Source of the DNA: a virus
DNA length: 21,166 bases
Direction: 5' to 3' (one strand)
IMG/VR virus record: IMGVR_UViG_3300025617_000139
Coordinates: 1-21,166 of that record
Both the position numbers and the translations under genes were made by a program. The notes beneath the pieces were generated by a model, which made no database searches, was not told where the DNA came from, and saw only the letters and a program-made list of their open reading frames with translations. Shown here piece after piece: positions 11,395 through 12,067 of this stretch (its first letter is position 1; each line of letters opens with the position of its first letter).

Positions 11395-11472
11395 GGAGGG
11401 CAGGCAGCGATAGGGGTAGCCACCTGCCCTCCGTGAAAGGCACAACACCCGATAGGGGTAGGGTGTGTGCCT
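11395..11472 (-). promoter_or_regulatory. Tandem hairpins in the leader of the cytosine methyltransferase gene
   Basis: Two dyads lie between the two methyltransferase genes. One is a perfect 10-bp stem GGAGGGCAGG (11395-11404) with CCTGCCCTCC (11423-11432). The other spans 11438-11472, with ACACCC (11445-11450) and GGGTGT (11461-11466) extended outward by AGGCAC and GTGCCT around a one-base bulge. Both loops carry the same CGATAGGGGTAG (plus strand); the transcript therefore shows CUACCCCUAUCG. They sit just upstream of the next ribosome site, so they could control translation, RNA stability or termination. Neither is followed by a clear U tract. Confidence 0.6.
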
Positions 11473-11475
11473 GGT

Positions 11476-11955
11476 CTATAAGTGAACCACCCGTCCCTCG
11501 ATACCCGAGGTATAGAGTGCTTCTACATTGTGCTTACCGTAGGCGATAAGACAGCTTGGGGAACCAGCCGATTGGCCTTGAGTCCCATCAGGTCTATAGA
11601 ACCTAATCCTACCCTTGATAAACAAGATAGCATCAGCCCTATTCCAAACATTCCTAAAGAACGCTCGAGTCTCTGTCCTGGCAAACACCAGAGCAATACC
11701 GTCACCGTGCTCAGCCAGCTTGTGCAAGAACGGGTCAAGCTTCTTGCCATAGGGAGGATTACACCACACCCTACCATGCCAGTCTTGGACTAAGCCGTCA
11801 TCTTTGATCGTGAAGTGTTGCGCTGCCGTGTCCCACGGTCTATCCTCCGAGGCGCACGGGTCAAGGTCGAAGTCACCTAAAGACTTGATGATCTCAGGTG
11901 GCGTTAGCCACACCTCAGTGCCGGCTACTGTTTTTTCGTTTCCAAAGTTGGGCAT
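11476..11955 (-). CDS. DNA N6-adenine methyltransferase (phage Dam family)
   Basis: A 159-residue protein. WLTPPEII (16-23), FDLDPCAS (29-36), and the catalytic NPPY motif in VWCNPPYGKK (63-72) followed by FLHKLAEHGDGIALVFARTET match the small phage Dam-type methyltransferases, where DPPY/NPPY positions the adenine and the DPCAS loop contacts S-adenosylmethionine. Length is normal for this family. ATG 11955 follows GGAGGAG. It sits beside a cytosine methyltransferase with no nuclease partner, as expected for protection from host restriction. Tandem hairpins lie in its leader. Confidence 0.88.
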   Translation of the reverse strand: MPNFGNEKTVAGTEVWLTPPEIIKSLGDFDLDPCASEDRPWDTAAQHFTIKDDGLVQDWHGRVWCNPPYGKKLDPFLHKLAEHGDGIALVFARTETRAFFRNVWNRADAILFIKGRIRFYRPDGTQGQSAGSPSCLIAYGKHNVEALYTSGIEGRVVHL

Positions 11956-11988
11956 TGCTATCTCCTCCGAGTAGTTGATTAGTGAGAT

Positions 11989-12067
11989 GGTGGGCTACCG
12001 ATAGCGGTCGGCAGCCCACCGTGTAGCCAGGTGAAAGGACGGGGATAAGGAACCCCAAAGCCCTGGC
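11989..12067 (-). promoter_or_regulatory. Tandem hairpins in the leader of the adenine methyltransferase gene
   Basis: The 121-base gap between clamp and adenine methyltransferase holds GGTGGGCT (11989-11996) paired with AGCCCACC (12013-12020), with an inner ACCG/CGGT stem closing on ATAG. A second stem is GCCAGG (12026-12031) with CCTGGC (12062-12067), enclosing GGGG (12041-12044) and CCCC (12053-12056). Layout, the connecting GTGAAAGG and the loop GATAG/GATAAGG match the hairpin pair before the next gene, so the two look like diverged copies of one RNA element. Confidence 0.58.

Follow-up and report, generated by a model that had tools for sequence, protein, structure and literature searches.

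Two intergenic leaders in an actinophage genome fragment, each carrying two hairpins in tandem, precede its dam and dcm methyltransferase genes, and the hairpin loops include the reverse complement of a motif found in the ribosome-binding sites of early genes. The fragment, referred to here as the window, is a virus record of 21,166 bases analyzed at full length, with leftward genes on the minus strand. The dam-type adenine methyltransferase gene (11476..11955, minus strand) matches PF05869, and the C5 cytosine methyltransferase-like gene, dcm (10765..11373, minus strand), matches the N-terminal part of PF00145, in agreement with the identities assigned to both genes in a first-pass annotation. 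The hairpins themselves are secure and their structure is well supported. From the sequences, we propose that the loops may act as anti-start hairpins, pairing with early ribosome-binding sites and turning down early translation, or that early mRNA may instead modulate the leader; we give this proposal about an even chance of being correct.

The leaders are ~100–120 nt long, and each contains its two tandem hairpins at the annotated place. Because dam and dcm are on the minus strand, the transcript is the reverse complement of the letters quoted in the annotation; its description of the hairpins holds except for the strand and for where precisely the linker lies. In the dcm leader, hairpin A (11395..11432, minus strand) consists of a 14-bp stem, GGAGGGCAGGUGGC and GCUGCCUGCCCUCC, enclosing the 10-nt loop UACCCCUAUC at 11409–11418. 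Hairpin B (11439..11471, minus strand) carries an identical loop at 11451–11460 on a different stem, GGCACACACCC and GGGUGUUGUGCC, with one bulge. In the dam leader, hairpin C (11989..12020, minus strand) is formed by GGUGGGCUGCC and GGUAGCCCACC around the loop GACCGCUAUC at 12000–12009, and hairpin D (12023..12070, minus strand) has an outer stem, GUGGCCAGG/CCUGGCUAC, surrounding an inner GGGG/CCCC stem with the loop UUCCUUAU. The loops are related, as had been noted: three of the four are 10 nt long and end in CUAUC (UACCCCUAUC twice and GACCGCUAUC once), and hairpin D is longer and includes a conserved pyrimidine internal loop containing CCUUUCA. The linker CCUUUCAC has exactly two occurrences in the window, one in each leader; however, it lies between the hairpins only in the dcm leader (11433..11440, minus strand) and falls within hairpin D in the dam leader. 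Compared with shuffled sequences, the fold energies of the two leaders gave z = -5.45 and -5.29; none of 200 shuffles did as well. In the predicted fold, neither the dam nor the dcm SD site falls within a hairpin.

Conservation was assessed in two IMG/VR contigs, G001 and G002, which are related to the window at genus level: most window genes are collinear in them, and the terminases are 78–81% identical. Tandem hairpins precede dam in both, and the leader is known from these three genomes only. Between the window and G002, five of 24 base pairs have changed and none is broken; the changes comprise three compensatory double changes and two GU/Watson-Crick swaps. If the eight stem changes were placed at random, the probability that all pairs survive would be ~3e-5. 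The stems differ while continuing to pair, within the window as was first observed and now across genomes. The annotation had named related phages without compensatory changes, or without hairpins beside the same genes, as evidence against a conserved structure; what was found is compensatory change and a dam leader retained in two genus-level relatives. The motif CUUUCAC is present once in each of the four leaders (0.03 expected). Upstream of the leader the phages carry different genes, clamp-like in the window and DUF1281-type in G001 and G002, which indicates that the leader belongs to dam and not to the upstream neighbor. In a further contig, L206, whose helicase is 80% identical, the clamp-like gene is followed directly by the post-dcm gene, and dam, dcm and the leader are all missing. 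Only the window has the second leader, in front of dcm; dam and dcm overlap in G001.

The upstream gene of the window (12077–12703, minus strand) resembles a sliding clamp by eye, without a Pfam match. It is present in the window and L206 and missing at the corresponding place in G001 and G002, a pattern suggesting an accessory insertion beside the methyltransferase module. G002 also has an extra methyltransferase-like gene between dam and dcm (L004 4487–5139) that has no hairpin leader of its own.

The hairpins were not found more widely. Leaders at ~25 other Dam loci and in distant Dam/Dcm relatives showed no tandem hairpins, and a scan of a genome collection with Dam returned nothing. A pattern scan of IMG/VR for hairpin D returned G002 only, plus unrelated sequences. 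Covariance models had been proposed in the annotation as a check. The tandem model (R1), run over 55 loci, recovered the window and G002 but nothing else. A single-hairpin model (R2) run over the group recovered its five training hairpins, followed by hairpin 1 of G001 (E = 0.29); the remaining hits were chance-like and included coding sequence of an ERF gene. In an alignment of the five hairpins (A8), 75.5% of cells are paired; since MAFFT fails to bring stems of unequal length into register, this alignment does not serve as main evidence.

The loop sequence CCCCUAUC is the exact reverse complement of the 8-mer GAUAGGGG, the consensus of early ribosome sites. Across the three phages, eight of nine coding-strand copies of GATAGGGG are located 4–8 nt before an ATG or GTG start (background 5.8%, p = 1.2e-9); the motif came to light in a search with the reverse-complemented loop sequence, and the comparison of loop with motif was made after the motif was seen. 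In the window, minus-strand copies precede three early genes: one of 45 aa, at a distance of 5 nt from its start (16823..16830); one of 52 aa, likewise at 5 nt, whose G002 ortholog is preceded by the same motif (15924..15931); and one of 124 aa, at 6 nt (14784..14791). Variants on the same strand are GATAGGGA, 2 nt before the start of a 52-aa early gene (15230..15237), and GATAGGG, found before a short early ORF (16980..16986) and directly before the start of a 77-aa early gene (14401..14407). In L206–L210, which have no leader, exact copies of GATAGGGG are absent from the contigs, whose coverage is partial. The sole copy that does not precede a start (16497–16504) abuts a very strong hairpin with a GGATCGTGATCCCCGG stem (window 16457–16504) and could be sequestered.

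In the opposite sense, all sense-strand copies of CCCCTATC in the window and G001 are within hairpin loops. In the window, the loop-to-site match is 8 nt long and occurs at three sites; for loop A alone, 80 of 300 shuffled loops matched as well. In the case of G001, the loop CCCCCUAUCUU, with five C, matches the ribosome site AAGAUAGGGGG, with five G, over 11 nt (2 of 300 shuffled loops as good), and in G002 the loop UUACCCCUA matches the site UAGGGGUAA over 9 nt (12 of 300). Loop and ribosome site thus appear to vary together, with the phage-specific letters in agreement. Predicted duplexes between loops and early sites have energies of -14 to -20 kcal/mol, a strength reached by 1–4 of 1000 shuffled loops, compared with -3.5 to -7.9 kcal/mol at the window's own dam and dcm sites. 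Not every loop follows this pattern. Most shuffled loops match as well as loops C, D and G001-1, and no matching early site was found for window loop C or for G002 hairpin 1.

A second case is provided by the cluster K mycobacteriophages, in which a 13-bp start-associated sequence (SAS), GGGATAGGAGCCC, precedes 11–19 non-structural genes; its role was called unknown in 2011, 2024 and 2025 (PMC3203893, PMC11373665, PMC12699233). One copy in the opposite orientation was recorded in 2011 and left unexplained (PMC3203893). All 19 cluster K records analyzed carry 13–19 plus-strand copies of GGATAGGAG, and seven have exactly one reversed copy. In cluster K1, 13–17 coding-strand copies are accompanied by exactly one reversed copy, which a conserved hairpin carries in its 10-nt loop. 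The reversed copy of Anaya (59870) makes up the loop CCUCCUAUCC; the hairpin is long and lies in the intergenic region between gp96 and gp97. Among the seven phages compared, the loop is invariant, 98% of stem cells are paired, and two pairs have changed on both sides; the covariation is modest. Altered loops in representatives of K4 and K6 are still predicted to pair with the SAS, though through a bulged or mismatched duplex; pairing as strong was reached by 34 and 41 of 1000 shuffled loops, compared with 3 of 1000 for K1. Many cluster K subclusters keep the SAS while the reversed copy is imperfect (K4, K6), lost or undetected.

The homologous interval in Adephagia is the gp92–gp93 intergenic region, to which RNA-seq reportedly traces the onset of late transcription (PMC11373665). 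Since the start is placed only to this interval, the Adephagia hairpin could sit just upstream of it. A hairpin in the reported late-start interval makes an early-to-late translational switch a natural hypothesis. Placement differs between the two groups, with hairpins in the dam and dcm leaders in one and possibly in a late leader in the other. The reversed-SAS hairpin is part of a conserved multi-hairpin intergenic region (L217 30180–30570, corresponding to Anaya 59680–60070, with homologs in L218–L235) that has the look of a leader or non-coding RNA; some records annotate it as spurious ORFs (e.g., Angelica gene 92). A promoter-like block, TTGACG-17 nt-TAGACT, was seen by eye in the cluster K alignment and was rejected when a strict pattern search in Adephagia was negative.

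In the proposed mechanism, ribosome sites of the GAUAGGGG type would mark short early genes heading the leftward transcription unit that contains dam and dcm. The dam/dcm part of the transcript would be made later, exposing the loops. The exposed loops could then compete with ribosomes by pairing with early ribosome sites, either in trans or within one polycistronic RNA. The outcome would be lowered translation of early genes or, alternatively, modulation of the leader by early mRNA. Pairing in the cell, repression, its direction and its timing are what we infer here; the hairpins, their compensatory conservation, the start motif and the exact complementarity of loop to motif are observed. Our confidence stays near even because the leader is present in three genomes, C-rich loops match G-rich ribosome sites easily, and many cluster K phages are without an exact reversed copy. 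It is possible, although we consider it somewhat doubtful, that two unrelated actinophage groups use the same kind of RNA switch, in which a private early ribosome motif is shut off by an anti-start hairpin in a later leader. If so, the start-associated sequences of cluster K, which have lacked an explanation since 2011, would gain a function, and the SAS of more than 100 sequenced cluster K phages would have a testable role. Phages with their own early ribosome-site code would then be able to silence a whole gene set post-transcriptionally by means of one hairpin in a later leader.

The annotation had suggested a cis regulator of methyltransferase synthesis. In this reading, a loop would form a pseudoknot with the dam SD region, or bind a protein, and control methyltransferase translation. 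The hairpins are directly upstream of dam and dcm, and the conserved CCUUUCAC and the pyrimidine internal loop resemble a binding site. In two dam leaders a loop complements the region beside its own SD, with letters that differ between phages: GCUAUC/GAUAGC (6 bp, p ~0.02), which in the window pairs the loop of hairpin C with GAUAGC beside the dam start codon, and UUACCCC/GGGGUAA (7 bp, p ~0.01). However, own-SD pairing is absent in G001 and in the dcm leader, where the loop is not significantly complementary to its own SD. The SDs and start codons are also outside the hairpins in the predicted fold, and control in cis gives no reason for loops that mirror, as reverse complements, the start motif of early genes. 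A conserved structure beside the methyltransferase genes is supported by the compensatory changes and by the leader being present or absent together with dam and dcm, but a purely cis role is unlikely; a cis pseudoknot on dam may coexist with pairing to early sites. Chance would be an alternative source of the match, functionless in that case, because ribosome sites are purine rich and a C-rich loop resembles the complement of any G-rich site. Some shuffles do equal the match of loop A, and most equal those of C, D and G001-1. The 11-nt and 9-nt matches of G001 and G002 are rarely equaled, though, the strong duplexes are reached by 1–4 of 1000 shuffled loops, and cluster K1 supplies an independent instance, which makes chance decidedly unlikely.

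Two further explanations were considered. The hairpins could be attenuators, terminators or RNA-processing and stability hairpins between operon genes, since their strong GC-rich stems start a few nt after the upstream stop codon, as is typical of processing or attenuation sites. However, no U tract follows the leader hairpins, no intrinsic terminator-like sites were found in 10500–13600, and the real terminator-like hairpin of this phage (634–666) has A- and U-runs. A terminator also has no need of a conserved loop that matches a motif, and we regard this explanation as very unlikely. Asymmetric, oriented sites such as the stoperators of cluster A mycobacteriophages favor recognition of GATAGGGG as double-stranded DNA, in either orientation, by a DNA-binding protein, with the hairpins incidental. 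The ESAS repeats have likewise been considered as DNA-binding protein sites (PMC3203893). Nevertheless, the compensatory stem changes imply a folded strand, and the reverse-orientation copies sit in strong hairpin loops; a DNA-binding protein is accordingly a highly improbable explanation.

The anti-start reading was also compared with known systems. Staphylococcal RNAIII and Rsa RNAs mask SD sequences with C-rich hairpin loops, as is proposed here, but are cellular regulators rather than phage leaders. The put RNA of HK022 is likewise a pair of tandem hairpins in phage transcripts; it acts on RNA polymerase as an antiterminator and differs in location and loop logic. In mycobacteria, the C-rich loops of the B11/6C sRNA have been shown experimentally to repress by pairing with G-rich ribosome sites (Mai 2019; PMC10470900). 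The 6C/B11 RNAs and the window leaders share two hairpins with C-rich loops in Actinobacteria, a feature represented here by UACCCCUAUC-type loops without long C-runs. 6C/B11 is nonetheless a host-encoded, stand-alone sRNA with plain C-runs, whereas the window hairpins are phage-encoded, are known only as mRNA leaders, and have loops that match a specific phage motif. Rfam 6C gave no match on 11370–12080 (E up to 10) or on the whole window (E up to 5), and no Rfam family at or above gathering score was found in the window, in the leaders or in the cluster K region. The cluster K SAS is similar as a short, conserved, oriented ribosome-site sequence before non-structural genes (GGGATAGGAGCCC there, GATAGGGG here) with rare opposite copies, but the window motif is shorter and G-richer. 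It is a repeated, oriented pre-start motif as in the SAS, GGGATAGGAGCCC was not found within 2 mismatches, and GATAGGGG is without the CCC end; we therefore consider it SAS-like and not a member. Membership in the ESAS class was rejected, as ESAS repeats keep the sequence of their arms conserved and offer no support for pairing as RNA (PMC3203893).

Two other features were observed in these phages. A tRNA-Asn gene (window 4749–4821, minus strand) is located directly upstream of a primase/helicase-like gene, and a tRNA with the same leader sequence is present at the equivalent place in G001 and G002. Both G001 and G002 have a second conserved hairpin, containing GGGGTAA, close to where the exonuclease gene starts (ACACCGGGGTAACAGTCCCCGGTGT and CACACCGGGGTAATCGTACCCGGTGTG; L027 15166–15190 and L032 4640–4666).
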